Position numbers and translations under genes: made by a program. A stretch of 64,000 bases of DNA, taken from assembly GCA_015178975.1 (NCBI GenBank), contig WHVD01000046.1:248001-312000 (forward strand), given 5' to 3'. Numbering within the stretch: position 1 is the first letter of the stretch; each line of letters begins with the position of its first letter. The stretch is from Hysterangium stoloniferum (Eukaryota > Basidiomycota > Agaricomycetes > Hysterangiales > Hysterangiaceae). The notes beneath the pieces are model-generated. The model saw only the letters and a program-made list of their open reading frames with translations, was not told where the DNA came from and did no database searches. Shown in pieces: positions 12,940 to 52,861 of this stretch.

Positions 12940-13477
12940 TGTTATGACCCGTTCCCGGATGTTTCAATATCCGACTTCCGATCTCCAACTACGGAACATC
13001 ATAGTTACCGTATCTTCTGCATTCTTCCCTTGTTCCGCATTTGGTAATTTGTCTGTTGACAAGTATTCACTCATTTGTCTGTTATATTCCTGTTTCAGAA
13101 TATTGTCTCCCCAATATGTCTTATTGTATTCCCATTTAAGAATACTTCCATTTCTGTCTTATTATGGTCTCAGTTTGTAGTACAATAAAGAGAAGACTTA
13201 TATTAGTTTCCGCGAATTTGTACTTTACCTTAGATCTGATATCGACTTAGTTTCTTATTCCTTCTTCCGTCTTTCTGTATGCTCAATATTCGGAACTCTT
13301 CGGAACTCTGAATATCCGTATCTTCCATTGTAAGTCTCACTTGTGAAATTAAGGACTTTGAGTGTTTGTGTAGAGGTGCAGCACATAAGCTGAAGCCCCT
13401 GACCCTATCTGATAGTTCCCGACTTTCCGGTGACTCTCTGATAGTTCTGGAATAAGTTCCTGACACGGTACTGAACA
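12940..13477 (+). repeat. 5' LTR of Gypsy A1
   Basis: A 538-bp LTR, TGTTATGACC...CTGAACA. The gag reading frame begins 34 bp after it, at 13512 (MGPKCKAAEG). Confidence 0.9.
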
Positions 13478-16400: not shown

Positions 16401-18472
16401 CCGATTCTTTCCCATTGGAAACCTGATGTTCCGATTATGCAATTGCTGTGATTCTTTCCATTCAAGATTCTGATGGTCACATTCATCTGGTCACATTCCT
16501 TTCTCGGACACTGAAAGTGTCCGAACTCAACTACGATGTTCATGATAAGCAACTTTTGCCAATTTTGAAGCTTTCAAACATTGGCGCCATTATCTCGAAG
16601 GTTCTGCAACTCCCGTTGTTGTTACCGATCACAAAAATCTTGAATATTTTTCTACCACTAAACTTTTAACCCACTGGCAAGCCCACTGGTCTGAATTCCT
16701 TTCCGCTTTCAACATGATTATCCATTTCTGACCCGGACGCCTTGGTGGAAAACCAGATGCCATGACTCGACAATAGGATGTCTATCCTAAAGAGGGGGAA
16801 AGTAACTACGCCGTTGTTAATCTGCATAACTTGAAACTGGTTTTTACAACACAACAACTTTCCACATCTATTCAAGCAACTTCCCTTCACTATCCAATTA
16901 TGCGTAGCATTATGATTATGGACATTGAGCAATTACATTAAGATATCCTTTCTGCACTCACTTCCGATGTGGCTCTCAAGCCACATCTAGAAATTCCTGA
17001 TAATCACAAGACTCTCAAGGTTTTATCCATCTCGATGGATGTATCTACATTCCAGATTCCAACAATCTCCGACTCCATGTACTTCAGTACAAACATGATC
17101 ATCCAATCTCTGGACATTACAGCATTAACAATACTCTTGGTCTAATCCGTAGAGAATATACTTGGCCCAACCTCTGAGATTTTGCAACCCAGTTCTGTAA
17201 GTCATGCACCACCTGCTTATGCTCTAAAACCCAGAGGCATAAGCCGTACGGCCTTCTCAAGCAACTCCCAATACCAGAAAAACCCTGGAACTCAATTTCC
17301 ATGGATTTTATCAAGCAACTTCCGATGTCTGAAGGCTTTACATCCATTCTAGTTGTTGTGGATCGATTCTCGAAACAAGGCATTTTCATACCTACTCATG
17401 ATACAATCACGTCCTTACAATTAGCGGAACTTTTCATTATTCACATATTTTCCAAACATGGTGTTCCATCTCATGTAACTTCCAATTGAGGCTCCAAGTT
17501 TGTCTCCCATTTCTTCCAGGCCCTCGGAAAAGCCCTCAACATGAAACTACACTTCACCTCGGGATATCACCCGGAAGGTGATGGACAAACGGAACGTGTT
17601 AATCAAACATTGGAACAATACCTCCACATCTATTGCAATTATCAACAGGACAACTGGAAATCCCTTCTTCTGATCGCGGAATTCACCTACAATAACTCTC
17701 CGAATGCAACTACCGGCGTATCTCCTTTTTTTGCTAACAAAGGCTATAATCCGAATCTCACAGTACATTCCGAACGAGATTTGGCTTCTGTCCGTGCTCA
17801 AGAATTTATTACTGACCTCGATGAATTACATCAAGAACTTCAGAAAGCTATTTCTTCCGCACAGGAATATTACCAACATTCCATGGACAAAAACAGGATC
17901 CCGCCTCCTAATTTTAAAATTGGTGATCAGGTTTTTGTAAAAGCTCAATTCTTCCATACCACCCGTCCTTCTAAAAAACTCGCTGAGAAATTCTTAGGCC
18001 CTTTTGAAATTATAGCACAAGCTGGTTCACTTTCATGGACTCTCCGACTTCCCGATAGTATGTGAGCAGTCCACCCCATCTTCCACATTTCCATGTTAGA
18101 ACCATGTGTTCCTAATAAAATCCCGGAACGTATTCAACCTCCGTCCCCTCCAGTCATCATTGACGGAGAGCCCGAATTTGAAGTTTCCGAAATTTTGGAT
18201 TCTAAAATCAATAATCGCCGACATACTTGTAAATTGCTCTATTTAGTCAAATGGGGAGGTTATGAAGGTACCAATGAGGAAACTTCATGGATATTGGCCA
18301 CAGAACTTGGACACACTATGGAAATTGTTACTGACTTCCACACAGCTTATCCGAGCAAACCCGGACCTTTATCATCACTCTGGCCTTTTTCCGTTTCCTT
18401 TCTGTTCAGTTTCCGTTACTTCCAATATCACTCTCGTTCTTGAAATCATACAAGTTAAAAATATATTTGCGA

Positions 18473-23113: not shown

Positions 23114-23582
23114 ACATTTTCAACAATTTTATTCGTGGGACTGCCGATACCGTACCCCTTAAGTTTATGAAAATCATGCCTTCAATTCTTGGATTTTTGA
23201 AGAACCCAAGTATTTGGTCACCCGAACTCGGTGTTTTGTGGGGTCACGCCGAACGGCATTTAGGAAATTGTAGAAAGCTAGAATGGAGTAAGGCTATTGA
23301 TTAAATTGTTGACTACTTGAATGTTTAATAAATATTAATTATTGTGTACCAGTCATTACTAGAACCACTCGTCAAGCATGGTCCTCTATTTACGTCCATT
23401 TGCTTCTTCAACTGTTTGCACACTTGGATCAATACTTTTTGCCAATCTCGCATATTTAGTGACAATATCACTTATATAACCAACCATGTAGAGTTAACGT
23501 AGACAATAGCTACTACATAGCAGATGCACTGAATGCCCGCCCATAACTTGATTCACATACAAGGTATTAGAAACTGTAACGT

Positions 23583-24069
23583 TCAAAGAGAGATGGGGGA
23601 GCAGCCAATGTTGATCTATTATTATAGTAACATAAAAATCTTAAAACAGAATCATGTAATAAAAGAACTCACAAGTCCGTTAAACTCGTTGCCAGTGCAG
23701 CAGACGGGTTGTTGGGCACAGTTGACACCAGCACTGTCGAAATAATTATTGGTTAAATAATAGTAATAAAGGGAGTAACTGCTAAAAGACAGACACAATA
23801 TCGAGGCATCCTATTCCAACGATACCTGTGATTCCGTTAAGGAGCCCGGAGAGGACGCCAAGGGCATGGATGACATCGTAGCTGGAGGCGTCACCAACAG
23901 TGGTGCAGCACTGGGGAACTCCTACAATATTTCGAGGCAAATATGAGATTAAATACAGTCTGGATATTTAATTGGGCTTACCGGTGTCGCACTGGGATTC
24001 TGGGGGGTTGGGGGCGGCGACAGCGAGGATACTGAAGAATCCAAGGGCAACGATGGATTTAGCGAACAT
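23583..24069 (-). CDS. class I hydrophobin, copy 1
   Basis: A secreted, surface-active cell-wall protein that assembles into amphipathic layers on aerial hyphae and spores. Four exons on the minus strand: 23982-24069, 23795-23921, 23673-23733 and 23583-23615; introns of 60, 61 and 57 nt. The product is 102 residues: signal peptide 1-19 (MFAKSIVALGFFSILAVAA), then eight cysteines at 27, 34, 35, 68, 77, 83, 84 and 97. The spacing C-x6-CC-x32-C-x8-C-x5-CC-x12-C lies within the class I range, and the C-terminus is INIGCSPISL. A TATA box lies 86 bp upstream. The second donor (GTCTGT) is not consensus but is the only one keeping frame. It differs from copies 2 and 3 at seven residues, all between 31 and 48. 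An in-frame TAG after exon 2 is intronic, so the gene looks intact. Confidence 0.9.
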
Positions 24070-24154
24070 GTTGACTGTGAGTGTGAGCGAAGGAAAGTAG
24101 CTGAGTAGTTCAGTGAATGTTATTGAACTGCAGAAACAAGGTGCAGAGGTAGCT

Positions 24155-24161
24155 CTTTATA
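24155..24161 (-). promoter_or_regulatory. TATA box of hydrophobin 1
   Basis: TATAAAG on the minus strand, 86 bp upstream of the ATG and conserved in all three units at about the same distance. Confidence 0.7.
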
Positions 24162-24780
24162 GGTTCCAAATCCTGTACAGCTATCCGGTTTTTCACCCCT
24201 TTTTCGTGATTTACTTGATTTAGTTTCTTTTCCATATTGCATGTGTGCACTCCGGCGTAACATTTAACATGCAGCTCGTCACGAGGAAGAGTACCTGAGT
24301 AAGGAACAAACGACCTTTGACAGCCACGGATGCGTCTGTCTTCGCATAACGATAGAACCGAATAACGAATTGAGGATTAGGCTCAAAAGGATATAGAAGC
24401 CGACAAGTTCAACAAGCCATAGAGGCATTATTGCCTGTATTGGGTCATGACAGTACTGCATAATATTTAGCATAAAACTAGTCCTGCTCACATGTTTATG
24501 GAAATTTGATTTCGCCAAGAAACTCCCTTATACTTGAGAGAGACAAGATCAGCGGCTATTCTGAAATCAGAATAAGGAGAAGCCTTTCAGGTCAGGAGAT
24601 CGGATAATGTACTTCGAGAGGTCAGCCTGCATCGCGACAATATAATATAGAAGTTCGGTAAAACAACACTGAAATAATACCGTTGCCGGAAAACATGTGT
24701 TGCCATGTCCAAATACTGGTCCAGGTTGCCGGAGAAACATCATTTGTGTCCTGGTCTGCTTTTTGTACCCGAATCACACG

Positions 24781-25093
24781 ACTATTATTGGATTTCGTTC
24801 CCCAAGTAATCAACAGCTAATGCCTGGATCCACAAGTAAAATGTATTTCAAAACGTGGGGCAATTTTCCTAGGTGGCGACGAATTGATTGACTTGTGTAC
24901 ATTCTCTGTCGCTCTTCGACTAAACAAAGACGATCTAGGAAATTATGACCGCTTGACGCCTTTCCGACGTTTATGGAAGGACTTACACTAGTCATTGTGA
25001 ATCCAGTCTGGAGGTGTGGGTACTAGTCAATGATATTATTAGAATATGGTCGCGGCACCTTGTTCTAGACGACACTTGGCTATGTGGTCGGCT
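24781..25093. promoter_or_regulatory. near-invariant block upstream of hydrophobin 1
   Basis: A 313-bp segment about 0.7-1.0 kb upstream of the gene. It shows only two variable positions across the three units (others at 27789-28101 and 38268-38580), although the sequence next to it in unit 3 differs by about 7%. The minus strand contains a 61-codon reading frame (24810-24995) identical in all three, but no known domain. It could be a regulatory region, a small gene or a gene-conversion tract. Confidence 0.4.
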
Positions 25094-25747
25094 CCGAAGA
25101 TTTGATGCTGGCACTGTCAATTGAATTCGTTACATAATAATGGTGATTGTGCCGTTGAGGCACAGAACCGAAGAAGTATGCAACTGACAGATTCTGTGAA
25201 GAGAGCCATCAGCCGTTGCATACTTAAATCTTCTCCGTGTGAGTGGCCATCAGTGTCAACCAATCCAGTTCTTCCCGTATGGTGTTTTATTGGTGTTTTC
25301 TTTAGCGGCACGGGACAATAAGGCCAACCCGGCAATCGGGCGTTGCCTGGTACCTTCTTGCGGGTCGAGTCCAACATAACTTTGTTACTTGCTTCACTGC
25401 TGTAAGAATTATTATCAGGGCATGTGACCATATTTGCGCGTTAATCATGGGGCGAAATAATCGACCGATTACTGTACCAGTTGCGCATATTAGGCTTGCG
25501 ATGTTCAGAGAATGGGGACGGGGAGACAGTATTGCTTTTATCTCTGGAACTCACATTTTGAACAATTTTGTCCGTGGGACTGCCGATACCGTACCCCTTA
25601 TGTAAGTTTATGAAAATCATGCCTTCAATTCTTGGATTTTTAAAGAACCCAAGTACTTGGTCACCCGAGCTCGGGGTCATGCCGAACGGCATTTAGGACA
25701 TTGTAGAAAGTTAGAATTGAGTAAGGCTACCGATTAAATTGTTCACT
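25094..25747. other. rest of unit 1, no gene recognised
   Basis: Sequence shared with units 2 and 3 that joins the conserved block to the next unit. It includes the site (ctcACATTttg, about 25556) equivalent to the Copia insertion point seen at the array's ends. Reading frames here are short and do not resemble known proteins. Confidence 0.6.
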
Positions 25748-25785
25748 CCTTGTGTTAGATTGTGTAATGCTAGCACCGTTTCCCA

Positions 25786-25846
25786 GGGTCAGGTGGTAAT
25801 ATCTTTGCTATATGCAGAAGCCCTGGGTTCAATTCCCAGTCTGCCC
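25786..25846 (+). other. tRNA-like sequence in TRIM 5' LTR (copy 1)
   Basis: Shortened form of the tRNA-like module: the A-box region has lost some bases, but the B box GGTTCAATTCC (25826-25836) and the T-arm stem CTGGG/CCCAG are intact. See 35986-36057 for the complete form. Confidence 0.65.
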
Positions 25847-26023
25847 ATTTATTTTTCTACTTGTTTAACAGGTTATGGGCCCTGCCGTGTGCTATAGGGC
25901 ATAGTCTCTGTGTGTAGAGTGAACTACTATATTTTTGTATGGTATAGTCAACAAGTCTGGACAAAAGAGCCAGAGAGGACCTATATTTGCATATAATGTT
26001 GTTGAGTGCTAGCATGTTTCCCA

Positions 26024-26096
26024 GGGTCAGGTAGTGTAATTGATAACACCCTTGCTATATATGCAGAAGCCCTGGATTCAATTCCCAGTCTCACTA
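26024..26096 (+). other. tRNA-like sequence in TRIM 3' LTR (copy 1)
   Basis: Begins GGGTCAG with an A box TAGTGTAATTGA. A short D-stem (GTG/CAC), a TTGC/GCAG anticodon stem and a T arm CTGGATTCAATTCCCAG are recognisable. The 3' acceptor strand is decayed. Confidence 0.6.
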
Positions 26097-26232
26097 TTCA
26101 TTTCTACACATTTAACACCTTGAATGTTTAATAACTATTAACTATTGGTGTATCAGTCATGACCACTCGCGAGCATGGTCCTATATTAACGTCCATTTTC
26201 TTTTTGAACTTTTTGTTCTTTGCTGCACACTT

Positions 26233-26423
26233 CATTGGGAAAGTGGGAAGATCAGTAAGTATGACGTCTATATTGTCTAGAGCCATCTAGGAGAGCTAGC
26301 TAGCTCGGCTAGACACACTCCTTTCGCGAGATCCCTATTTACTTCTCGGTATACAAGCTTACCATAAATCTAGGGAGTCTAGGGAGTCTACATAATGGGT
26401 GTAGACATTCCCAAATCCCGACG
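26233..26423 (-). mobile_element. short TIR MITE in unit 2
   Basis: 191 bp, ends CATTGGGAAAGTGGGAAG and, inverted, CGTCGGGATTTGGGAATG; flanks TT|...|TT. Unit 1 keeps the empty site (gcacacttggatc near 23430). Same element as 3292-3489 (opposite strand) and 36713-36903. Confidence 0.7.
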
Positions 26424-26587
26424 TTGGATCAATACTTCCTGCGATTCTCGCATATTTAGTGGCAATATCATTTACATAAATCAATCATGTAGAGCTAACG
26501 TAGACAATAGCTACTACATAGCAGATACATACACTGAATGCCCGCCGATAACTTGATTCACATAGACGGTATGAGAAACCGTAACGT

Positions 26588-27074
26588 TCAAAGAGAGATG
26601 GGGGAGCAGCCAATGTTGATCTATTATTATAATAACATAAAAATTTTAAAACAGAACTATGTAATAAAGGAACTCACAAGTCCGTTAAACTCATTGCCAG
26701 TGCAGCAGACGGGTTGTTGGGCACAGTTGACACCAGCACTGTCGAAATAGTTATTGATTAAATAATAGTAATAAAGGGAGTAACTGCGAAAAGACAGACA
26801 CAATATCGAGGCATCCTATTCCAACGATACCTGTGATTCCGTTAAGGAGCCCGGAGAGGACGCCAAGGGCAGCGATGACGGCACTGTCGGAGGCGGCACC
26901 AACAGCGGTGCAGCACTGGGGAGCTCCTACAATATTGCGAGTCAAATATGAGGCTAAATACAGTCTGGATATTTAATTGGGCTTACCGGTGTCGCACTGG
27001 GATTCTGGGGGGTTGGGGGCGGCGACAGCGAGGATACTGAAGAATCCAAGGGCAACGATGGATTTAGCGAACAT
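26588..27074 (-). CDS. class I hydrophobin, copy 2
   Basis: Same role and structure as copy 1. Exons on the minus strand: 26987-27074, 26800-26926, 26678-26738 and 26588-26620, giving 102 residues with the same 19-residue signal peptide and the same eight-cysteine spacing. Compared with copy 1 the loop after the first CC pair reads APQCCTAVGAASDSAVIAAL, a composition more usual for hydrophobins, so copy 1 is the diverged one. It differs from copy 3 only at residue 100 (Ile against Val). A TATA box lies at 27161-27167. All splice signals match those of copy 1. Confidence 0.92.
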
Positions 27075-27160
27075 GTTGACTGTGAGTGTGAGCGAAGGAA
27101 AGTAGCTGAGTAGTTCAGTGAATGTTATTGAACTGCAGAAACAAGGTGCAGAGGTAGGCT

Positions 27161-27167
27161 CTTTATA
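27161..27167 (-). promoter_or_regulatory. TATA box of hydrophobin 2
   Basis: TATAAAG on the minus strand, 87 bp upstream of the ATG. Confidence 0.7.
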
Positions 27168-27788
27168 GGTTCCAAATCCTGTACAGCTATCCGGTTTTTC
27201 ACCCCTTTTTCATGATTTTCATAATTTAGTTTCTTTTCCATATTGCATGCGTGCACTCCGGCGTAACGTTTAACATGCAGCTCGTCACGAGGAAGAGTAC
27301 CTTAGTAAGGAACAAACGACCTTTGACAGCCACGGATGCGTCTGTCTTCGCATAACGATAGAACCGAATAACGAATTGAGGATTAGGCTCAACAGGATAT
27401 ACAAGCCGACAAGTTCAACAAGCCATAGAGGCATTATTATCTGTATTTGGACATGGCAGTACTGCATAATATTTAGCATAAAACTAGTTCTGCTCACATG
27501 TTTATAGAAATTTGATTTCGCTAAGAAACTCCCTTATACTTGAGAGAGACAAGATCAGCGGCTATTCTGAAATCAGAATAAGGAGAAGCCTTTCAGGTCA
27601 GGAGATCGGATAATGTACTTCGAGAGGTCAGCCTGCATCGCGACAATATAATATAGAAGTTCGGTAAAACAACACTGAAATAATACCGTTGCCGGAAAAC
27701 ATGTGTTGCCATGTCCAAATACTGGTCCAGGTTGCCGGAGAAACATCATTTTTGTGTCCTGGTCTGCTTTCCGTACCCGAATCACACG

Positions 27789-28101
27789 ACTATTATTGGA
27801 TTTCGTTCCCCAAGTAATCAACAGCTAATGCCTGGATCCACAAGTAAAATGTATTTCAAAACGTGGGGCAATTTTCCTAGATGGCGACGAATTGATTGAC
27901 TTGTGTACATTCTCTGTCGCTCTTCGACTAAACAAAGACGATCTAGGAAATTATGACCGCTTGACGCCTTTCCGACGTTTATGGAAGGACTTACACTAGT
28001 CATTGTGAATCCAGTCTGGAGGTGTGGGTACTAGTCAATGATATTATTAGAATATGGTCGCGGCACCTTGTTCTAGACGACACTTGGCTATGTGGTCGGC
28101 T
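27789..28101. promoter_or_regulatory. near-invariant block upstream of hydrophobin 2
   Basis: Counterpart of 24781-25093, with one difference from unit 1. Confidence 0.4.
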
Positions 28102-28744
28102 CTGAAGACTTGATGCTGGCACTGGCAATTGAATTCTTTACATAATAATGATGATTGTGCCGTTGAGGCACAGAACCGAAGAAGTATGCAACTGACAGAT
28201 TCTGTGAAGAGAGCCATCAGCCGTTGCATACTTAAATCTTCTCCGTGTGAGTGGCCATCAGTGTCAACCAATCCAGTTCTTCCCGATGGTGTTTTATTGG
28301 TGTTTTATTTAGCGGCACGGGACAATAGGGCCAACCCGGCAATCGGGCGTTGCCTGGTACCTTCCTGCGGGTCGAGTCTAACACAACTTTGTTACTTGCT
28401 TCAGCTGTAAGCCTTATTATCAGGGCATGTGACCATATTTGCGCGTTAATCATGGGACGAAATAATCGACCGATTACAGTGCCAAGTTGCGCATATTAGG
28501 CTTGCGACTGTCAGAGAATGGGGACGGGGAGACAGTATTGCTTTTATCTCTGGAACTCACATTTTGAACAATTTTGTCCGTGGGACTGCCGATACCGTAC
28601 CCCTTATGTAAGTTTATGAAAATCATGCCTTCAATTCTTGGATTTTTAGAGAACACTTGGAAGTACTTGGTCACCCAAGCTCGGTTTTTTGTGGGGTCAT
28701 GCCGAACGGCATTTAGGACATTGTAGAAAGTTAGACAGGTATCG

Positions 28745-31677: not shown

Positions 31678-33461
31678 CTAGTACTTGGTGTAACCCCCCT
31701 TGGCATCCAAAACAGCTGCAATCCTTCTAGGCATACTCTCTATCAAATTCTGACAAATAGAAGCTGGAATCCTGTCCCACTCTGTCTGAACCCTTTCCCA
31801 TAACTCCTGAATACTCCTAGGCTCCACTTCATACTCTAGTAGCTTCTTCTTGGGGTAATGCCAAAGGTGTTCAATTGGATTAAGATCAGCAGATTGAGGG
31901 GGCCATATAATGACATCAAAATCACTGCCATTAAGCCAATTGGTGGCCTTCTTGCTCTTGTGTTTGGGATCATTGCCTTGCTGAAAGACAATATCCCCAG
32001 TCTTCTTCTTGTAATGCTTGAGATATTCTTGAAGTTCATCCTTGTTAGGGTACATACATGGCGGGTTTCCGGAGAAACCCATGGGATATCTGGTAGGACT
32101 TGGCTTCAGCTTACAGGCTGTGCCCTCACGAGATTGTGTTGTCCAATTTCAGACAGGCAGACAGGAATCCTGGGGGGTCCAGGCGGGGTTTGTGGGTCAA
32201 GGGGTCATAGGTCGGAGGTCATGGGTTGAGGGGTCGTGAGTCGAGATAGATAAGATAGATGTGCTGGAGCCTGTGGGCTCCGACTAGCATGAGCGGTGTG
32301 ATTCAAGTAGGAGTTTAGAGCAGAAAATGTATTAGATTACTGGGGGGAATCTAAGCTGATTTTCTGACTGGATTGTATGTACAACATCTGCCAGACTATA
32401 TATATCATGGAATGAATGACATACCAAATCCAGTAATAATGAAACAAAACTAGCAAAACATAAAATGAGAATAGTAAACACCAAATTTGGTGTTAGGAAC
32501 GGGACAGAATGGAGTGGAGTCCGAATTGTGACAGGTCATTTGACTAAAATGGGAATGGGGCTCTGTTAGAGAGATGATGGGTTTTCCAAGTGGGGTCCAG
32601 TGACTGATGTGTGGGATGGGGTTGGACATAGACAGGGACAGAGTCTGGTGGGTATTCTGGTGACTGAAACACAATGTAACGAAGTCGAACGTAGACAGGT
32701 CTGATGTACAGAGTCTGGTGGGAATTCCAGTAAACTGACAATTGGTGCATATAGGGCACGAGTGCGTATAAGTTAGTGCCTGGAGTCCAGCAGGAATTCT
32801 GGTCATAACAATCCTTCAAAATGCTAACATAAAGTTCAACATCCATCCTCCCATCAATCTTGGTGGCATATCCTGGTCCTTCCCAGAACATACAACCCCA
32901 CAACATCAGATTCCCCCCTCCAAACTTGACTGTGCCCTCAACCAGCCTATCACTGACCCCCTCTCCTGATTTTTTCCACACCCACTTCCTCCCATCTGAC
33001 CCCAAATGATTGATTTTAGTCTCATCTAACCAAACAACCCTCTTCCAGTCCTCCAGAGACCTTGTGTGCCAGTGCAAAGTCCAGCCTCTCCCTTCTATGC
33101 CTTTTTGTAAGTTTAGGCTTTTCCTCTTCACCACAGCCTTCATTCCAGCTTTCTTGAGTTCCCTATGAATTTTTCTTGCAGAGATAGACTCCCCATTCAT
33201 ATCTTGTAGGACTTTAGAGGCCTGAGTGGCATGGTCAATCTTCTGGGAAGTGATTTGTTGGATGATGTAATGGGTATCAGAGGGGGAAAGTTTGTGTGGA
33301 TGACCTCTGGCTGCTTTGGAGAGGGAGGAAGAATGTTTAGAGTGAATTCTGGATATAGTAGAGACAGAACAACCAGTGGTAACAGCTACTTCATGTGCAG
33401 ACTTGCCCTTGTCATGTAGAGTAAGAACACGATCAAGTTGAGCAGGAGTGAGAGCTCTCAT
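31678..33461 (-). pseudogene. Tc1 transposase, interrupted by a solo LTR
   Basis: The Tc1/mariner DDE transposase cuts and pastes the element at TA sites. The N-terminal helix-turn-helix part starts at 33461 (MRALTPAQLDRVL) and the first catalytic Asp is in WLDETKI. A solo LTR (32043-32810) splits the gene. The C-terminal part (32037-31678) has QQGNDPKH, where the usual second catalytic Asp position (QQDN) is Gly, and the Glu in NPIEHLW at the 34-residue spacing. Without the LTR and its duplication the coding length is 1011 nt (336 residues), normal for Tc1, so the frame was open when the LTR arrived. The Gly suggests a weak or dead enzyme even then. Confidence 0.85.
32043..32810 (-). repeat. 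solo LTR of Gypsy family B, TSD ATCCT
   Basis: A 768-bp LTR, minus orientation, exact flanks ATCCT at 32038-32042 and 32811-32815, within the Tc1 transposase gene. Confidence 0.93.
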
Positions 33462-34952
33462 GATGTAAACTGATGGGTTGTTGGGATGCTATCACTTGGA
33501 AAAGTGAACAGTTGTATATATACACAATTTGAACAGGTCACATGATTTTATTTGCATTTATTTGTGGATAATCAATAAGGTTATGTGTTAATCATGTGAC
33601 AGGGACAAAACTGTTCCAATGAGATTGCATTAGTATTTGATTTATAGTTTGATGACAAATAATGCTTATGTCATAGAATTCTTAGGGTATATAGCCAACA
33701 TATATGACTACCTAAATTAAAAATTTCAGGTCAATTGGTCAAGTACTCATTGAGTTATTCAACATTCCTTGACATATAAAAAATCATTGGAACGGTTTTG
33801 TCCCCCACTGTAATATGAAAACCTAGCCCAATTGAATGGGTACACCAGAGAATCATCAGCCCTCCAGTTAAATGAGCCTTTTTGTATTGGCCATAATATT
33901 TTCCACATTCAGTCTCCTCCTTCATAATTTCTGCCTCTGTCAAACCATCTCTTGGTATCCCTGGATAAGATGGTCACACCTGAATTGGTGGGCCACCATA
34001 CCAGCTTCCAGAGACTCTCCAGTCTAGATGACTTGCTATATTTGTGGGAAAAGAGGGTGTGTGAAGTGAAAGGCTGCTATAAACCTGTTGTGCATGGTCA
34101 TAAAACCACTGAGCAACCTTGAACAAGGGTTCTGGAAACTGCTCCCCAGTGTATGACAATATAATGTTCTCCATTGCTGGACACCATAATTGTAAGTGTG
34201 GTGGGGGGATCTTTTTCACAGCTAATTCTTGTAGAAGAGAAACTGCTGTGAGAGGAACAAGCTGAAATATGATATCTTCTGCAGCAATCTTCAACTTGTC
34301 AGTTCATAGTATTTGTGCTAGAAACCATGAAAGAGACCCACATGGCATAATAGTTCCCTGACTGGAACAATTCTTTTAGAATCAGATAATGAGATGTAGA
34401 ATTTCAAAAATTCTGAAATAACAGGATATAACTCTTGTTGCTGGAATGTAAGGTTGACAGATGCTGAGGGGGTTTTGGTGGCAGTTAGCTCCTTTATGTA
34501 TTACTTTGTGAACACTGGGATTTGGAATTGCCATCCTGGATGGCTTTAAATTAACTCCAGATACTTTTGGAGAAGATTATGGTTCTCCTATTGATTCTTC
34601 TTCAACATCTTCTATCCCTGTTTCTGGTGAAATTAATTGGTGGGCTTCATTGATTATCCCTGCACTGTGAGCATATTCCTGAGCTAGTGGTTTGTGGTGA
34701 CAAAAGCACCTTGTTGTGCAGGAATGACAATGCCATGACCCATCTCTTGTTAATGACACAAAGACCCACTTGCCACCAGTTTGTGCTTCCCCAGTTGAAC
34801 CATGGATTGAGAAAATAAAGCAGTCCTTCCCCTTTGTCTCAGCTACAAGGTATGCAGTGGGGTAAGGTGCATTGGGCTCAAGCTCCATAGATAGAATGAA
34901 ATTTATGTGCTGAGAGAGAATAGTTGTATGGATACAATTATTGCCTGCACAG

Positions 34953-35427: not shown

Positions 35428-35985
35428 CACAGTCACAGGATAATGAGGCTTCTGATGCAGATATAGGTAAATATTGAACATGGAAGTATCTGTCAGTCTA
35501 AAAATTATTAATAAAACATTATACAGAATGGAAGACCATACCTTTAGCATTTCAAGTTTTGGGTCGCAGTCTTGGAGAATAAAAGTTGAATGATCTGACT
35601 GGCTCAATCCATCCTCTCCTAAGCAACACTCCCAATAAACAATATTCTGTTCCTGTAATTGAGAATTTTGGTTTAATTTTGAATTATTTTCTTTCCCATT
35701 TTTGAAGGGATTCAGTGTCACTGTGAAGATATCCTACGATTCTCCTATATCCCCACTGAGTTCTGTTTCTCCCCTCCATTTCCAATACTGGGGCTTTCCT
35801 TTTTTGCTTGGATGTAGTATTGTTGTCCTTAATTACTTCCTTTGGTTTTGAAGGATTCCTCAAAGTTGTTTTTGCTTCTTTGGCTGTATTTCATCATACA
35901 ATGCCTCAAGTTAGTATTAAGTAAGGCTCCTGATTAAATTGTTCACTCCTTGTGTTAGATTGTGTAATGCTAGCACTGTTTCCCA

Positions 35986-36057
35986 GGGTCAGGTGGTGTA
36001 TTTGGTAATGTCTTTGCTATATATGCAGAAGCCCTGGGTTCAATTCCCAGTCTGCCC
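35986..36057 (+). other. complete tRNA-like sequence in TRIM 5' LTR
   Basis: 72 nt. Acceptor arms GGGTCAG/TCTGCCC (five of seven pair, counting G-T), D arm GGTG...TGTC, anticodon stem TTTGC/GCAGA with a 7-nt loop TATATAT, and T stem CTGGG/CCCAG. The A box TGGTGTATTTGG and B box GGTTCAATTCC both fit Pol III consensus. The loop would give anticodon UAU (Ile), but the base before it is A instead of the universal U33, so this is a tRNA derivative, probably acting as a promoter. I do not call it a working tRNA gene. Confidence 0.65.
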
Positions 36058-36204
36058 ATTTATTTTCTACATGTTTAACAGGTTATGGGCCCTGACATGT
36101 GCTATAGTTTCTGTGTGTAGAGTGAACAGCTATATTTTTGTATGGTATAGTCAACAAGTCTGGACAAAAGAGCCAGAGAGGACCTATATTTGCATATACA
36201 TAAT

Positions 36205-36471
36205 TGTTGAAAAAAAGGAACCTCAAGAACCTAATAGTAGTTTAACTCAGTCATGTTGTAGGTAAGGTAACAGACTGATATATTATGTACCTAATAGTAG
36301 TTTAACTAATAAACAACTATTAGTTACAGTAAGGCGAGTAGCTTAGGACCTTAACTCACCTCAGTCACGTTGTAGGTAAGGTAACGGACTGAGGTGTTTC
36401 TACTATGGTCGACTACCTTATATAGCAACCGGTCGGCTCCGAGTGAGCGACGCGTAAGCCCAAATTCAACA
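36205..36471 (+). repeat. solo LTR inside TRIM copy 2, TSD ATAAT
   Basis: A 267-bp LTR, TGTTGAAAAA...AATTCAACA, exact flanks ATAAT (36200-36204 and 36472-36476). TRIM copy 1 shows the site without it. It contains 'ttatatagcaacc' as a possible TATA box and two related 'ggtaaggtaac(a/g)gactga' segments. Confidence 0.9.
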
Positions 36472-36502
36472 ATAATATTGTTCAGTACTAGCATGTTTCC
36501 CA

Positions 36503-36575
36503 GGGTCAGGTAGTGTAATTGATAACACCCTTGCTATATATGCAGAAGCCCTGGATTCAATTCCCAGTCTGACTA
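36503..36575 (+). other. tRNA-like sequence in TRIM 3' LTR (copy 2)
   Basis: A box TAGTGTAATTGA and near-B box GATTCAATTCC, D stem GTG/CAC. Almost identical to 26024-26096. Confidence 0.6.
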
Positions 36576-36712
36576 TTCATTTCTACACATTCAACACCCT
36601 GAATGTTTAATAACTATTAACTATTGGTGTATCAGTCATTACCACTCGCCAAGCATGGTCCTATATTAACGTCCATTTTCTTTTTGAACTTTTTGTTCTT
36701 TGCTGCACACTT

Positions 36713-36903
36713 CATCGGGAAAGTGGGAAGATTAGTAAGTATGACGTCTATATTGTCTACTAGGAGAGCTAGCTAGCTCGGCTAGACACGGCTAGACACA
36801 CACCTTTCGCGAGATCCTTTACTACTCGGTATACAAGCTTACCATAGATCTAGGGAGTCTAGGGAGTCTACATAATGGGTGTAGACATTCCCAAATCCCG
36901 ACG
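36713..36903 (-). mobile_element. short TIR MITE in unit 3
   Basis: 191 bp, ends CATCGGGAAAGTGGGAAG and (inverted) CGTCGGGATTTGGGAATG, flanks TT. Same insertion as in unit 2. Confidence 0.7.
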
Positions 36904-37066
36904 TTGGATCAATACTTCCTGCGATTCTCGCACATTTAGTGGCAATATCATTTATATAATCAATCATGTAGAGCTAACGTAGACAATAGCTACTACATAG
37001 CAGATACATACATTGAATGCCCACCGATAACTTGATTCACATAGAAGGTATGAGAAACCCCAACGT

Positions 37067-37553
37067 TCAAAGAGAGACAGGGGAGCAGCCAATGTTGATC
37101 TATTATTATAATAACATGAAAATCTTAAAACAGGACTATGTAATAAAGGAACTCACAAGTCCGTTAAACTCGTTGCCAGTGCAGCAGACGGGTTGTTGGG
37201 CACAGTTGACACCAGCACTGTCGAAATAGTTATTGGTTAAATAATAGTAATAAAGGGAGTAACTGCGAAAAGACAGACACAATATCGAGGCATCCTATTC
37301 CAACGATACCTGTGATTCCGTTAAGGAGCCCGGAGAGGACGCCAAGGGCAGCGATGACAGCACTGTCGGAGGCGGCACCAACAGCGGTGCAGCACTGGGG
37401 AGCTCCTACAATATTGCGAGTCAAATATGAGGCTAAATACAGTCTGGATATTTAATTGGGCTTACCGGTGTCGCACTGGGATTCTGGGGGGTTGGGGGCG
37501 GCGACAGCGAGGATACTGAAGAATCCAAGGGCAACGATGGATTTAGCGAACAT
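37067..37553 (-). CDS. class I hydrophobin, copy 3
   Basis: Exons on the minus strand: 37466-37553, 37279-37405, 37157-37217 and 37067-37099; 102 residues, same signal peptide and eight-cysteine pattern as copies 1 and 2. The protein equals copy 2 except Val for Ile at residue 100 (INIGCSPVSL at the end). A TATA box lies at 37640-37646. It looks intact and is probably expressed in the same way as copy 2, since the first ~150 bp upstream are almost the same. Confidence 0.92.
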
Positions 37554-37639
37554 GTTGACTGCGAGTGTGAGCGAAGGGAAGTAGCTGAGTAGTTCAGTGA
37601 ATGTTATTGAACTGCAGAAACAAGGTGCAGAGGTAGGCT

Positions 37640-37646
37640 CTTTATA
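37640..37646 (-). promoter_or_regulatory. TATA box of hydrophobin 3
   Basis: TATAAAG on the minus strand, 87 bp upstream of the ATG. Confidence 0.7.
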
Positions 37647-38267
37647 GGTTCCGAATCCTGTATAGCTATCCGGTTTTTCACCCCTTTTTTATGATTTTCA
37701 TAATTTAGTTTCTTTTCCATATTGCATGCGTGCACTCCGGCGTAACGTTTAACATGCAGCTCGTCACGAGGAAGAGTACCTGAGTAAGGAACAAACGACC
37801 TTTGACAGCCACGGATGCGTCTGTCTTCGCATAACGATAGAACCGAATAACGAATTGAGGATTAGGCTCAACAGGATATACAAGCCGACAAGTTCAACAA
37901 GCCATAGAGGCATTATTATCTGTATTCGGTCATGGCAGTACTGCATAATATTTACCATAAAACTATTTCTGCTCACATGTTTATGGAAATTTGATTTGGT
38001 CAAGAAACTCCCTTATACTTGAGAGAGAGAAGATCAACGGCTATTTTGCAATCAGAATAAGGAGAAGTCTTTCAGGTCATGAGATCGGATAATGTACTTT
38101 GACAGGTCAGCCTGCATCACGCCAATATAATATAGAAGTTCGGTAAAACAACACTGAAATAACATCGTTGCCGGAAAACATGTGTTGCCGTGTGCAAACA
38201 CTGGTCCAGGTTGCCGGAGAAGCATCATTTTTGTGTCCTGGTCTGCTTTCCGTAACCGGATCACACG

Positions 38268-38580
38268 ACTATTATTGGATTTCGTTCCCCAAGTAATCAA
38301 CAGCTAATGCCTGGATCCACAAGTAAAATGTATTTCAAAACGTGGGGCAATTTTCCTAGATGGCGACGAATTGATTGACTTGTGTACATTCTCTGTCGCT
38401 CTTCGACTAAACAAAGACGATCTAGGAAATTATGACCGCTTGACGCCTTTCCGACGTTTATGGAAGGACTTACACTAGTCATTGTGAATCCAGTCTGGAG
38501 GTGTGGGTACTAGTCAATGATATTATTAGAATATAGTCGCGGCACCTTGTTCTAGACGACACTTGGCTATGTGGTCGGCT
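38268..38580. promoter_or_regulatory. near-invariant block upstream of hydrophobin 3
   Basis: Counterpart of 24781-25093. One base differs from both other units and one from unit 1 only, while the preceding ~230 bp carry about 15-18 differences from unit 2. Confidence 0.4.
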
Positions 38581-39059
38581 CCGAAGATTTGATGCTGGTA
38601 CTGTCAATTGAATTCGTTACATAATAATGGTGATTGTGCCGTTCAGGCACAGAACCGAAGAAGGATGCAACTGAGAGATTGTGTGAAGAGAGCCATCAGC
38701 CGTTGCATACTTAAATCTTCTCCGTGTGAGTGGCTATCAGTGTCAACCAATGCAGTTTTCCCTGTATGGTGTTTTATTGGTGTTTTCTTTAGCGGCACGG
38801 GGCGATAGGGCCAACCCGGCAATCGGGCGTTGCCTGGTACCTTCTTGCGGGTCGAGTCCAACGCAACTTTTTACTTGCTTCACTGCTGCAAGCCTTATTA
38901 TCAGGGCATGTGACCATACTTACGTGTTAATCATGGCACGAAAAAATCCACCGATCACACGCTAAATTGCGCACATTAGGCTTGCCACTATCAGAGATTG
39001 GGGACGGGGAGACAGTATTGCTTTTATTTCTGGCACTCACATTTTAAACAATTTTGTTC

Positions 39060-39310
39060 GTATGGCTCTCACGATCATTTTTGCCCTCGGTTAGCATCTC
39101 AGCTCCATGTGCTGCAGTCAGAATGGCCACAACCTTGTTACTTGCTTCACCGCTGTAAGCCTTATTATAAGAGCATGTGACCATACTTACGCGTTAATCA
39201 TGGCAAGAAAAAATCGACCGATTACAGTGCCACATTGCGCGCATTAGGCTTGCGACTGTCAGAGAATGGAGACGGGGAGACAGTATCGCTTTATTTCTCG
39301 CACTCACATT
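39060..39310. repeat. partial repeat of the unit end
   Basis: After a 70-bp stretch of other sequence, 39131-39310 repeats the end of unit 3 (38875-39050) a second time. It stops exactly at ACATT, the target site of the Copia LTR that follows. Confidence 0.8.
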
Positions 39311-45924: not shown

Positions 45925-47152
45925 AATAATAAAACTTGATAATAATTTTGAAAATAAAAGTAAAGTGTGAAAAACATAGAAATCAAAGTCTGCGGGAGAT
46001 CCGCTTAAGGACTTGAAAGACATGTCAGAACCTGTAAAAGCAAAGAGAGACATAGGGTGACAGGGAATAATAAAAATGAGTCCAAATGTAACACGGGGTC
46101 CACGGAGTGTGGTCAGAGAGAAGATAGTGGTCCAGGTTTGAGTGGGTAAGCTGTATGAAAGTCAGTAACAATTTCCGTGGCATTACCGAGTTCCATGGCA
46201 AAAATCCATGAGGTTTCTTCATCGGTGCCCTCGTGACCCACCCACTTGACCAAGTAAAGCAGTTTACAAGTGCATCGATGCTTGTCAATTTTTGAATCTA
46301 AAATCTGTGAGATTTCAAACTCGGGTTCTCTGTCAATAATGACTGGAGGAGGCGGAGATTGCACGTGATCTGGGATAGTGTTAGCAGTACAAGGTTCTAG
46401 CATAGAAACATGAAATACCGGGGGTACCGTGCACATACTATCTGGAAGCCGTAGGGTCCAAGAGACTGAACCTACTTGTGCAATAATTTCAAACAGACCT
46501 AAATATTTTTCAGCAAGCTTTTTTGATGGACCGGTTGTCTGGAAGAATTGAGCTTTGACAAAAACACGATTGCCAATTTTGAAGTTTGGTGGCGGGATCC
46601 AGTGTTTGTCCACTGAATGTTGATATTGCTCTTGGGTGGACAGTATTGCAGTCCAGAGTTCCTCGTGGAGGTCCGTGGTGAACTCATGAGCGCGAGCAGA
46701 GGCGAGATTTCATTCTGGATGTACTGTAATATTTGGATTATATCCTTTATTTGCAAAGAATGGGGAAATGCCAGTAGTGGCTGAAGGTGCATTGTTGTAA
46801 GCAAACTCTGCAAGTGGTAACAAGGATTTCCAATTGTCCTGTTGGTAGTTGCAATATATGCGGAGGTATTGTTCCAATGTCTGGTTGACGCATTCGGTTT
46901 GTCTGTCACCTTCCGGATGATGTCCAGACGTGAAATGTAATGTCATGTCCAAGGATTTCCCGAGGGATCTAAAGAAGTGAGAGATGAACTCTGATCCTCG
47001 ATCGGAAGTCACGTGGGACAGAACTCTGTGCCTGGAAAATATGTGGATAATGAAAAGTTCTGCTAACTGCATGGATGTAATTGTGTCATAAGTAGGGATG
47101 AATATACCTTGTTTTGAGAATCTGTCAACAACAACTAGAATGGTGGATGTTA

Positions 47153-48725
47153 TGTATTTTTAGGTTTTTCCGATTTTTATCCAATCTCCCCTAAACAAAT
47201 TGATAAAAACACATTTAAATGTACTTATATTGCGACGAAATTATTGTACAATAGTCTCTTGAAATTAACCTGATTTTTACAATTTATTTCATATTTTTAT
47301 CATTTATTTTGGGAGAGTTATCGAATTTCTACTGTTTATTCTTTTTTATCTAAATATCTTCTGAAGTTGGCCATCTGGCGCTTATTGCACAATGCGCAGG
47401 AAAATTCATCACAAAGGTGACATTCGTCACAACAAGTGACTGGTATCACAACAAGTGACTGGTATCACAACAAGTGACCGGTGTCACAACAAGTGACTGT
47501 TGTCACAAACGCCACTCAGCTGTCACAAAACGGCTGAATAATAATAACGTCACACATATGGAAACATTGTGACACGCACGGGAATATTATGTAATCAGCA
47601 TGTGCACAAAAATCAGCAACTTCGCAACGTGCGAGAACATTACATCAGCATATATGCTACAATGGAAAGTAGTAGAAACTCCTGGAATATTCCAGCAGAT
47701 TCCAGGTAAAATAGCTAAAAATAGGTAAAACAAGTAGCTAGAACATTCTCCCATGTCTCAGATTTTATTGTATATAAGGAGCTCTGCTCCACCACTGAAA
47801 TATAACTCATTTTAACCCATTTATCAGCCACATCAGTGTGCCACTGCAGCAGCAGTTATATTCCACCCCTAGTTAGGCTGTTGGATAAATATATATAAAC
47901 ACTTAGTCACCTCTAGTTGAGCTGCTGACCTAAGCTATCTCAGGATCCATTGTCACCTCTAGTTGAGCTTCTAACATAATAATCCTACCCCCTTGTCACC
48001 TCTAGTTGAGCTTCTGACATAATAATCCTACCCCCTTGTCACCTCTAGTTGAGCTTCTGACAAACAATCTTGTTCCCCTTTTGCCACCTCTTAGTTGAGT
48101 AGCTGGCTATCCTTTATTACTAATCCACCTCTAGTTGAGTAGTTGGTTATCAATTAAAGTAATAAATATTTTAGGTTATATTGAGATTAGAAATACATAT
48201 ATTCTAATTTCTACCCGGTTTTTGGCATAAATAAATACTGAGAATATTCTTGCAGAATCCTTAAGACTACATTAAGATCCTAATAAGTTAGTATCACAGT
48301 AGACCCTGTAGGTTAGTGTAAATAAAGCATATATTAGCCAAATAAGTGTTTTATTCTATATCTAATCTTTTGACCTGTTTATAAATATTTTTACTGTTTG
48401 ATAAATAGTATAAAATATATATAAACTAGCTAGAATCGAAGTCGAATTTAGTTTCGGAATCAGTGAATTGTTATTCATATTTTAGTAGTGTTTTTACAGA
48501 AAAAGAACAAGCTTGCACAAGCAGCTCTCAAAACCTTCTTTGTGAAGTAGGGTGCATATATTCAAGTAAACTCTTGACTTCAGGGGTTCTAAGTCTATTT
48601 AGGCTGCCACTGATTAATATCAAATACTTAAATTATTTTACCTTGCAATGAATCGAGTATTTGCACATTTTGATAGAGCATTGGACTCCTTTTTCAGAAA
48701 ATAGTATTAAAATAAGGCTAATACA
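47153..48725. repeat. long solo LTR with internal tandem repeats
   Basis: A 1.57-kb non-coding insert, TGTATTTTT...TAATACA, splitting the integrase of Gypsy B. It has a TATA-like TATATAAGG near 47770 and no protein motifs. Two internal repeat groups are present: about four copies of 'cacaacaagtgactggtat' (47427-47510) and six or more copies around 'cctctagttgag' (about 47860-48140). The target duplication is unclear (TGTTA and TCACA). Confidence 0.65.
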
Positions 48726-51614
48726 TCACAGTGGAAAAGCCTTCGGAATCCAGTAGGTGTTAAATGAAATCCATAGAGATAGAATTCCACGGATGTTCTG
48801 GTACTGGGAGTTGTTTCAAAAGGCCGTATGGCTTGTGTCGCTGAGATTTCGAGCGGGGACAAGTAGTGCAAGATTTGCAATAGTGCTTAACGAATCCACA
48901 GAGTCTGGGCCAAGTATATTCTCTTCTTATTAATGATAGAGTTTTGTTGTACCCGAAATGTCCTGAGAGTGGATGATCATGTTTGTATTGAAGGATCCTG
49001 AGGCAGAGGCCATTGGAGTCTAGTACATAGATTCGATCGTCAAGTCTAATGAAACCATGTTGATCAAGAGACCACTGAGGTTGATCGGGGTCCACGGGAT
49101 TGTCAAGGTGAGCTTTAGTTATCAGGTCTAGTGGAATTGCCGATAGAATATCTTGATGTAACTTCTCGATATCCATAATGATAATTCCACGGACAATGGG
49201 ATTGACGAGGAAAGTTGCATGGACTGATGCAGTAAGTTGCTGATTCATGAAAATAGGTTTCAGGTTGTGTGGATTTACTGTGGCATAGTCATTGCTCCCC
49301 TCTTTAGGATAGACATCCCATCTTCTAGTTAAAGTGTTGGGTTTGCCGCCGAGATGGCCAGGTCGAAAGCGGATAATCATGTTGAAGGCAGATAGATATT
49401 CAGACCAGCGGGCCTGCCGGCGGGTCAAAAGTTTTGTGGTAGAAAAGTATTCCAGGTTTTTGTGATCTGTTACAACGTCAATAGGAGTTCCTGAGCCTTC
49501 CAAATAGTGTCTCCACGCTTTGAAAGCTGAAAAGATGCCAGGAGTTCCTTATCATGAATGTCGTAGTTGAGCTCTGCTCCAGTAAAAGTCCAGGACAGAA
49601 AAGCCACAGGGTGGACTTCTCCATCGGAGTCCTGGATAGACAGAATGGCTCCAAGCACATAGTCCAAGGAGTCTGTTTCGACAATGAGCGGGAAGTCCAG
49701 TTTCCAATGTGACAGAATAGGAGCTGAAGAAAAAGAATTTTTTAAAAGATTGAAAGCTTTTTGACACTTATCGTTAAAATTCCACGGAGTATCCTTATGC
49801 GTAAGATGGGTAAGGGGTACCGTGATGTTGGAATATCCACGGATAAACCGTCTGTAAAAATTGGCAAAGCCGAGGAAGGATTGTATATCTTTAACTTTTC
49901 GGGGTTCAGGCCAATCTTTGATGACTTGCACTTTAGTTTCATCCATGCGGAGTCCGTCGGGTCCCATGATGAAACCCAGGTATTCCACAGAGTCCGTGTC
50001 AAAAGTACATTTTTTACCATTCGCGAATAAACCATGTTGTCTGAGTCTCTGGAGAACTTCATGGACTTGTTTGTTGTGTTCCATGGGATTCTCGGAGTAG
50101 ATAAGAATGTCATCCAAGTAAACAATGATGCATACATCAAGCATGTCAGAGAAATGTCATTGATAAAACATTGAAAAACAGACGGAGCATTGGTGAGTCC
50201 GAAGGGCATCACCAACCACTCGAAGGCCCCATAGTGGGTTCTAAAAGTGGTTTTCCATTTGTCACCCACGGCAATCCAGACCAAGTGATAGGCATGTTTG
50301 AGATCTATTTTGGTGTAAATCTGGGCATTCCGCAGAGCATCGAGCAGATCAGATATGAGTGGGAGTGGATACTTATCCTTTTTGGTGACAGCATTGAGTC
50401 CTCTAAAATCAACACAAAGTCGAAGGGATCCATCCTTTTTTCTGACAAACAGAACAGGTGCTCCAAAAGGAGACTTTGAGGGTCTGATAAAACCTATGGA
50501 CAAATGTTCATCCAGGAAATCATGAATCACGGAAAGTTCCATGGACAAGAGCGGGTAAATATGTCCTAGGGGTGGCTGGGCACTGTCTTCGAGATCAATT
50601 TTTAAGTCGTATTATCTGTGAGGTGGAAGCCGGTCAGCTTTCCACTTGCTAAAAACATCCGCGAAGTCATGATATTTTTCTGGGATGCCTTCTAGGTCAG
50701 CAGCTTGCTCAGATTCAGATACCAGGGTTGAAAAATGTCTAGTTGCTTCATCAATTTTTAAGTTGATAGTGAACACCTGGGACCCATCCATTTTTGTAGC
50801 CCTAATAAAAGCTGCAGCATTAATCAGAGAAATAGACGGAGGTGCTGTGGGTTCTGGGGAAGCCATGGGTGCCGTAGGGATCACAGGAGTCCTCAAGACT
50901 GCAGGTGCCAGGAAGGCCATGGGTGCCGTGGAGGCTGAGACAGGCACAGTTTCCTCGGCTGGCATGGGAATCCAGAATGTTATACTGTTAGCTATCCAGT
51001 CAATCAACGGATTGTAGTGGGTATTCCAGTTGTGTCCTAGGACCACCGAGCAACTTGAGTCTAACTGGGTCACATAGAAAGTGACCAATTGAGATGTTTC
51101 ACACGGGAAACAGATGGGTAAATCACAAGCTTGGGTAACAACCGAATTACTTGTGTCATTGAAGAGGTGGAGACCAACAGGATTTATCGAATAAGTTGAC
51201 AAAGAATTTTTTTGCGTGAACGCAACCCCCAACCCGTGCAGAGTCCATGGGGTTGCTTACTCTTTTTTCAAGTCGGAAGCCAGTTTGTCCTTCAACGGGG
51301 TTTCTGTGGAGGCCTTGGCTGTTTGACCCTTTGAAGAGTTTGCTTTTGCCAGCAGACATTCTGGGACTCGATGACTGGGTTTCCCGCACAAGAGACAGAG
51401 GTTATTGTCAATACGATGTTGTCTTTCCTGTCGGGTCAATTTGCCATCAGGTCCGAGTTTGCCTGAGAGGTTGGGTTTTCTGGCTTGCTTGCTGGACTGT
51501 TGACCCTTGTTATTGTCCTTGTTGTTATTGTTGTTGTTGTTGTTGTTAGAAGACTTTTTATCGTTCTTCTTGTCGGATTGCATGGAGTTTTGGTTGCTGG
51601 TTGACGAGTTGTTG

Positions 51615-52190
51615 TTGTTTTTATTGACTGTGGACTTGTTTACTTCATCCCTGGAGGTCTCACGGGCAACTTCCATGTGATGTTCCCAATAGTGTGTGTC
51701 CACATTTTGAGCTTTGAGGTGCATACGGGACAGGGTTTTTGGCTTGCCATCTTCTCCTTTCGAGACTTCGTCTTTAAGGCAGGATGGCAGACCAGCGTAG
51801 AATTGGTGGCGGAGAGCAGGATCGCCCACTGACAACGAGCTGCAAGATTATTGAATTGGACAATATAGTCTGTGATGCACTGCGTGTCCTTCATACAAAG
51901 ATTTGTTTTTATTGACTGTGGACTTGTTTACTTCATCCCTGGAGGTCTCACGGGCAACTTCCATGTGATGTTCCCAATAGTGTGTGTCCACATTTTGAGC
52001 TTTGAGGTGCATATGGGACAGGGTTTTTGGCTTGCCATCTTCTCCTTTCGAGACTTCGTCTTTAAGGCAGGATGGCAGACCAGCGTAGAATTGGTGGCAG
52101 AGAGCAGGATCGCCCCACTGACAACGAGCTGCAAGATTATTGAATTGGACAATATAGTCCGTGATGCACTGCGTGTCCTTCATACAAAGA
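51615..52190 (-). repeat. 288-bp tandem duplication within gag of Gypsy B
   Basis: 51615-51902 and 51903-52190 are almost identical direct copies, so the duplication is recent relative to the element. Confidence 0.85.
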
Positions 52191-52861
52191 TTTGTGAGAC
52201 TATTCTCAGCTTCTCCTGTTGGATCATACGGGCCAAAGTTGGTTTCAAGCTCCTCAACAAAAGCATCCCAATCTTCGAGCCAAAGTGGCTCTTCCTCAGA
52301 AATTCCGCTAAAAGCCGGTTTGAACCATTTCAACGCGGATCCCAACAAGTATGAAAGTGCATAGTTGACTTTTCGGGAGTCTGTGGAGAATGCAGCGGAT
52401 CAATCACGGAAATTGAAGCGATATTGCATGAGGAAAGTAGAGAGCTTGTTTGGGTTGGAACCCGTGAAGGGTTCTGGAGCATTGACATTTGACTGTGGAG
52501 GTTCTTGTTCCTTTTTCTTTTGTTCTTCGAGCAGGTGCATCATAAATGTATCTATAGTACCTGCTAAAAACTCAGAAGTAGGATCCCCCAAGTGCAGTCA
52601 TTGACTAGGTGGAGGATTTTCAACACCTTTGCCCTTGTCGGGGGCCACAGATTCATCCTTGTGCTCAGATTCATCCTGGTTTTCCAGGACTTCTTTGATA
52701 CGGGCTTCTTCTGTGGATTCCAACTGGTTTGCAAGTGTCTGACTGGTATACAAACTTAACGGGGAATGAAGAGTCGACGGTCCAGGTAATGATGCCTGTG
52801 TGCATGTATTTCTTCTTGGTGGCATAATGAAAACAATCTGCGAGTCTTAGTCAGAAAATAC

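Follow-up and report, generated by a model that had tools for sequence, protein, structure and literature searches.

Helenus and other small LTR elements

TRIMs whose LTRs contain tRNA-like sequences have been described from fungi, animals and plants under the name Helenus and grouped as TRIMp3 (Kojima 2024, PMC10886601). According to the main text of that paper, Helenus elements are 311-1263 bp in length and solo LTRs are known, while the fungal members feature 5-bp duplications, primer sites mostly directed to the anticodon half or loop of a tRNA, with the initiator tRNA-Met (iMet) as the dominant type, Copia-like primer regions and probable mobilisation by Copia. The fungal hosts named there are Pucciniales, Agaricus bisporus, Coprinopsis cinerea and Amylostereum areolatum.

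Two plant systems treated in the same text are related in part (PMC10886601). The TRIM Cassandra carries a Pol III-type internal promoter in its LTRs, which is derived from 5S rRNA and whose transcripts have been demonstrated, whereas the promoter of the family described below is predicted from sequence. The SMARTs of grasses are very small non-coding LTR units, probably moved by Copia and with LTRs unlike those of the partner, and no tRNA-like LTR is reported for them in that text. The tRNA-derived SINEs (SINE2) possess tRNA-like A and B boxes as well, but lack the LTR pair, the primer site and the 5-bp duplication of integrase type.

The family reported here comes from the truffle-like fungus Hysterangium stoloniferum (Agaricomycetes, Phallomycetidae, Hysterangiales), an order absent from the fungi named in the main text of PMC10886601. 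Judged by its described features, the family is of the Helenus type: it shares with the published elements (in so far as that text describes them) the tRNA-like LTRs, the 5-bp duplications, the anticodon-half iMet primer site, the Copia-like primer region, the solo LTRs and a length within the reported range. The range of Helenus is thereby extended to Hysterangiales, an order new to the named hosts. A sequence-only reading of the locus had stated that no described fungal element of this kind was known to it, a statement overtaken by the description of Helenus (Kojima 2024, PMC10886601). The literature search, which did not extend to Repbase, found no paper on a Helenus-type element in Hysterangium or Hysterangiales, and the genus is mentioned once in PMC7550596.

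A decayed copy with a nested solo LTR

The window, that is the whole stretch of 64,000 nucleotides that was analysed, contains at 35953-36596 a pair of direct repeats that both include a tRNA-like stretch, the first being followed by a primer site. Taken jointly with the Pol III/iMet/Copia cycle proposed below, this feature is very probably a decayed Helenus-type TRIM (TRIMp3) of H. stoloniferum.

The 5' LTR (35953-36080, plus strand, 128 bp, TGTTAGATTG...TTTAACA) shares 88.3% identity across 128 nt with the LTR of the full-length copy L026, and is followed at once by the primer-binding site GGTTATGGGCCC (36081-36092, plus strand), exactly where it had been placed from the sequence. This site is complementary to the anticodon half of the host initiator tRNA-Met (gene L091), with 12 nt kept and departure thereafter. 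The 5' part of the internal region (36081-36199, plus strand) shares 84.8% identity with that of L026 across 125 alignment columns. The letters at 36472-36485 (plus strand) hold the duplication partner of a nested insertion and the end of the internal region, and only a remnant of the 3' LTR follows (36486-36596, plus strand), whose first ~15-24 nt are gone together with the PPT, the gap being flanked by TGCTAGCA repeats. The LTRs of 118-128 bp with TG...CA ends in the sequence-only reading thus hold for the 5' LTR, but the proposed 118-bp 3' LTR starting from TGTTCAG at 36479 begins within letters that are the end of the internal region. The two repeats are 88% identical over 89 nt.

The presence of a tRNA-like sequence within each LTR was confirmed by a covariance search with the Rfam tRNA model RF00005 (gathering score 29 bits), which gave 33.6 bits for the stretch in the 5' LTR (35987-36058, plus strand, with A-box-like TGGTGTATTTGG and B-box-like GGTTCAATTCC) and 38.7 bits for that in the 3' LTR (36504-36575, plus strand). 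ARAGORN called the first stretch as tRNA-Ile(tat) and did not call the second.

A twin of the insertion lies at 25753-26117 (plus strand) within the same flanks and without the nested solo LTR, the shared flanks extending over ~45 bp on the left and matching over 2.6 kb at 95% on the right. Relative to L026, the twin has a 35-nt gap between TGCTAGCA repeats, to which the PPT and ~15-24 nt at the start of the 3' LTR were lost; the latter is given as a range since the break falls inside the repeats, and the junction between internal region and 3' LTR in the window copy is the same. An Rfam tRNA search of the twin (L016) returned no match. The 5-bp flanking duplications that had been claimed are perfect in the twin (CCTTG/CCTTG), while the flanks of the window copy, read directly as CCTTG (35948-35952) and CCCTG (36597-36601), agree at four of five bases.

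The sequence separating the two parts of the internal region, 36205-36471 on the minus strand, is a 267-bp solo LTR that stems from a different LTR element, one whose primer site is of the same type, and is enclosed by the duplication ATAAT (36200-36204 and 36472-36476). The span of 644 bp first assigned to the element overstates its length, because this nested segment is a separate insertion. LTRs of the nested type showed a 5-bp duplication by eye in 10 of the 21 places displayed, including the one in the window; in L007, L017 and L019 the LTR is continued by a minus-strand GGTTATGGGCC primer site, and pairs of these LTRs lie ~4.1 kb apart on contigs C486 and C124. A MITE was considered for 36205-36471 and ruled out by the other copies, which have TGTTGAA...TTCAACA ends and 5-bp duplications. 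The window feature is a worn copy that has lost its PPT and the start of its 3' LTR and that harbours a foreign solo LTR.

Full-length copies in the genome

Searching the host assembly (111 Mb, 554 contigs) revealed many dispersed copies with a typical unit of ~411 bp, composed of a 128-bp LTR, a 155-bp internal part and a second 128-bp LTR. Among the matches listed (best 40 of 512 candidates scored), 43 of 45 covered the whole 411 bp at 98-100% identity. From 90 loci, 38 distinct two-LTR units of 409-413 bp with LTRs of ~128 bp were cut, and young copies are over-represented among them since they were picked as the best matches to one query. With an internal part of only ~155 bp, a total below 1 kb and two short TG...CA LTRs, the units have the dimensions of TRIMs.

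A perfect 5-bp target duplication surrounds the whole unit in 28 of the 32 non-tandem two-LTR units, so that the further TRIM-structured copies with flanks of their own, for which the sequence-only reading had proposed to search, do exist. The four units lacking the duplication are L039 and L050, whose flanks are common to both, L045, which has the end of another internal region on its left, and L090. The remaining 6 of the 38 belong to three-LTR arrays (L051, L064 and L088; LTR-internal-LTR-internal-LTR), in which the outer 5-bp duplications match in all three (GATTC, AATCT and CTATC, respectively). Tandem arrays are known for the zebrafish element LTR-11_DR according to the text of PMC10886601. 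Where the internal part meets the 3' LTR, a PPT-like AAGGGAGT is found in 38/38 units, shifted by one base in three of them.

These features bear on the explanation that the window feature consists of two independent tRNA-derived SINEs side by side. Each repeat alone does resemble a SINE head, but the 5-bp duplications are located around the two-LTR unit in 28/32 copies and outside all three arrays, and the primer site and the PPT-like AAGGGAGT occupy the inner borders. Because the duplications enclose the whole two-LTR unit, the repeats are not independent SINEs, and the explanation, ruled out by the position of the duplications in the other copies, retains practically no probability. An LTR pair, a primer site and a short fixed-length duplication, all three of which SINE2 elements are devoid of, are present here.

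No difference separates the 5' from the 3' LTR in 28 of the 38 units, indicating that those copies were recently active. A 23-nt LTR motif occurs 311 times in the genome and a 23-nt internal motif 80 times (at most two mismatches), and the reversed-pattern control of each motif gave 0 matches in the same genome. Two LTRs per internal part would amount to ~160 LTR motifs, so many solo LTRs are likely, and the excess of LTRs over internal parts is likely to represent them.

A primer site for the anticodon half of initiator tRNA-Met

The sequence GGTTATGGGCCC was found in 38/38 units, directly after the 128-bp LTR in 37 and with a one-base offset in one. The primer region reads GGTTATGGGCCCCGCT in 34 of the 38, and its first 15 nt, GGTTATGGGCCCCGC, are the exact complement of the host iMet gene L091. 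Three host loci fit the initiator-tRNA pattern with one mismatch each; L091, located on C112, is the one that was read, scoring 58.9 bits as a tRNA and featuring the anticodon arm CGGGG CCCATAA CCCCG with C33. It is intronless, which differs from the four anticodon-primed tRNA types presented in the text of PMC10886601, all of which have an intron.

The comparison sequence initially used for the iMet complement, GGTTATGAGCCC, is off by one base because it was drawn from an initiator tRNA with U33, whereas the host iMet with C33 matches exactly; the anticodon-half iMet primer site itself was borne out. From this complementarity, the anticodon half of initiator tRNA-Met is the probable primer. 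The 5-bp duplication and this type of primer site are both traits of fungal Helenus, and the tRNA-derived sequence in both LTRs, the trait of Helenus as a whole, is present in the window copy and in the full-length copies L026, L036, L041 and L053. The interpretation as a fungal TRIM with tRNA-like LTRs and a primer site for the iMet anticodon half is well supported by the genome copies.

A candidate Copia partner

The primer-site sequence CAGGTTATGGGCCC occurs 856 times in the genome and 0 times in the control. It is situated 2-5 kb upstream on the same strand for 9 of 19 Copia RT matches, with one case downstream and one on the opposite strand; the 19 are those, among 150 scored out of 1270 candidates, that lie on C1-C22, where the listing of primer sites (100 of the 856) is complete, and four RT matches on C24, the contig at which that listing stops, were left out. 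Five Copia starts were compared with the TRIM. Those of L095 and L096, which belong to one Copia family, are identical to it at 26/26 nt across the LTR end and the primer site (CACTTTTAACA followed by GGTTATGGGCCCCGC), while L092 and L093 showed 92% identity over 26 columns and L094 matched over 17 nt.

The best candidate for the mover, from these sequence matches, is the Copia family represented by C13:1332757-1337905, a 5149-bp coding element whose RT match falls within a 1384-aa open frame. Its 349-bp LTRs are identical to each other, end in TGTTA...TTTTAACA and are bordered by the duplication CTGTA on both sides. It resembles the TRIM in the TGTTA...TAACA ends, the 5-bp duplication and the identity of the last 11 nt of the LTR and the 15-nt primer site, but differs in its size, its coding capacity and its LTR without a tRNA match. 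No Rfam tRNA match above the cut-off was obtained in the Copia pieces L095, L097 and L098, which cover that LTR, or in the partial L092-L094, and apart from the 26-nt block and the second occurrence of the LTR end, no significant similarity between the candidate Copia and the TRIM was found. The primer site is common to other Copia families (L092, L093 and L094), which is why the C13 family is no more than a candidate partner. The suggestion that the element was possibly moved by a local Copia family becomes probable with the 26-nt block, the TGTTA...TAACA ends and the 5-bp duplications.

The tRNA-like stretch as a putative Pol III promoter

Both LTRs of the full-length copies L026, L036, L041 and L053 scored above the Rfam cut-off as tRNA, at 46.8-49.2 bits. 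At the gathering threshold tRNA is the only Rfam family reported in the LTRs, which distinguishes them from the 5S rRNA-derived LTRs of Cassandra. In the best-scoring young LTR, a single one of 21 model pairs is non-standard (a C-A pair in the anticodon stem), as would suit a working tRNA gene carried as cargo. The anticodon loop, however, reads UAUAUAU with A at position 33, where U33 is usual in a tRNA, making a decoding tRNA unlikely. The text of PMC10886601 credits no more than a minority of the Helenus families with the capacity to encode a tRNA, and functional cargo, rejected on the A33, is very improbable.

For the origin of the stretch, 16 host tRNA or tRNA-like sequences were compared, among which the iMet gene L091 was entered with flanks that spoil its score. 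The closest was L112, with 53 identical positions, and no parent tRNA is named since L112 is perhaps itself mobile-element sequence. L112 (C2:482011-482084) is tRNA-like at 42.7 bits and lies ~210 bp downstream of L115 (C2:481680-481850), a partner-type Copia LTR end with primer site that is 96% identical to L095 over 124 nt; the two may constitute a short Copia-derived element with an internal tRNA-like stretch, or a nested insertion.

Replacement of Pol II control by a tRNA-derived Pol III promoter, as the sequence-only reading had put forward, is plausible from these LTRs. The use of the stretch by Pol III is inferred, because its basis is the anatomy and the precedent of Cassandra. An ordinary Pol II-driven TRIM whose LTR holds a fossil piece of a SINE or tRNA, now inactive as a promoter, would be the competing explanation, and several observations are in line with it. 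Extra conservation of the A or B box, as a sign of selection, was looked for in 28 distinct LTRs and not found: within-family variation is 0.065 in the A box, 0.078 in the B box, 0.048 in the whole tRNA-like stretch and 0.036-0.041 at the LTR ends, and only in the stretch just before the tRNA-like part is it higher than in the boxes (0.084). The atypical A33 of the loop would likewise suit a fossil, as would the T4 runs, of which every one of the 38 5' LTRs contains one or two. T4 runs are Pol III stop signals, and some of the transcription by Pol III, if it occurs, should end before leaving the 5' LTR. The internal region is T4-free in 38/38 units, but so were 2187 of 5000 shuffles of one copy, and this absence therefore says nothing. 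Against a fossil, tRNA scores are higher in the four young copies tested (46.8-49.2 bits) than in the decayed copy of the window (33.6 and 38.7 bits), indicating that a cloverleaf that is almost intact and has box-like motifs was retained in the mobile lineage. On balance, a fossil piece in a Pol II-driven TRIM is considered unlikely.

In the preferred cycle, the 5' LTR would supply an internal Pol III promoter through its tRNA-like stretch, and transcription would proceed past the short T4 runs there and end in the 3' LTR. Minus-strand synthesis would be primed by a piece of initiator tRNA-Met whose end lies near nt 40, as the exact 15-nt match suggests, and Copia RT and integrase, with the C13:1332757-1337905 family as best candidate, would copy and insert the TRIM, in keeping with the 26-nt block of LTR end and primer site, the TGTTA...TAACA ends and the 5-bp duplications. 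A stronger version is advanced tentatively and is doubtful: the TRIM would be a Pol III-driven parasite accepted by the Copia machinery despite having little sequence in common with it, through its LTR tips and the 15-nt iMet primer site, the T4 runs would split the output into aborted tRNA-sized RNA and read-through genomic RNA, and copy number would be set by the leakiness of the terminators. With a recently active family having many identical LTR pairs and a named, coding Copia family with which it has LTR end and primer site in common, Pol III use and partner recognition, two questions of Helenus biology, become directly testable.

Other mobile elements in the window

One stretch of 2.2-2.6 kb is present three times in the window (23424-25575, 25993-28581 and 36472-39061) at 94-95% identity. 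A broken Tc1/mariner-type transposase is located at 31678-33488 on the minus strand, and for its ORF at 32544-33488 the best among the relatives listed has 79% identity across 69% of the query. Several broken Gypsy-type polyproteins were recognised by eye from ORF translations only, at 13464-18065, 46113-52399 and 54499-57842.
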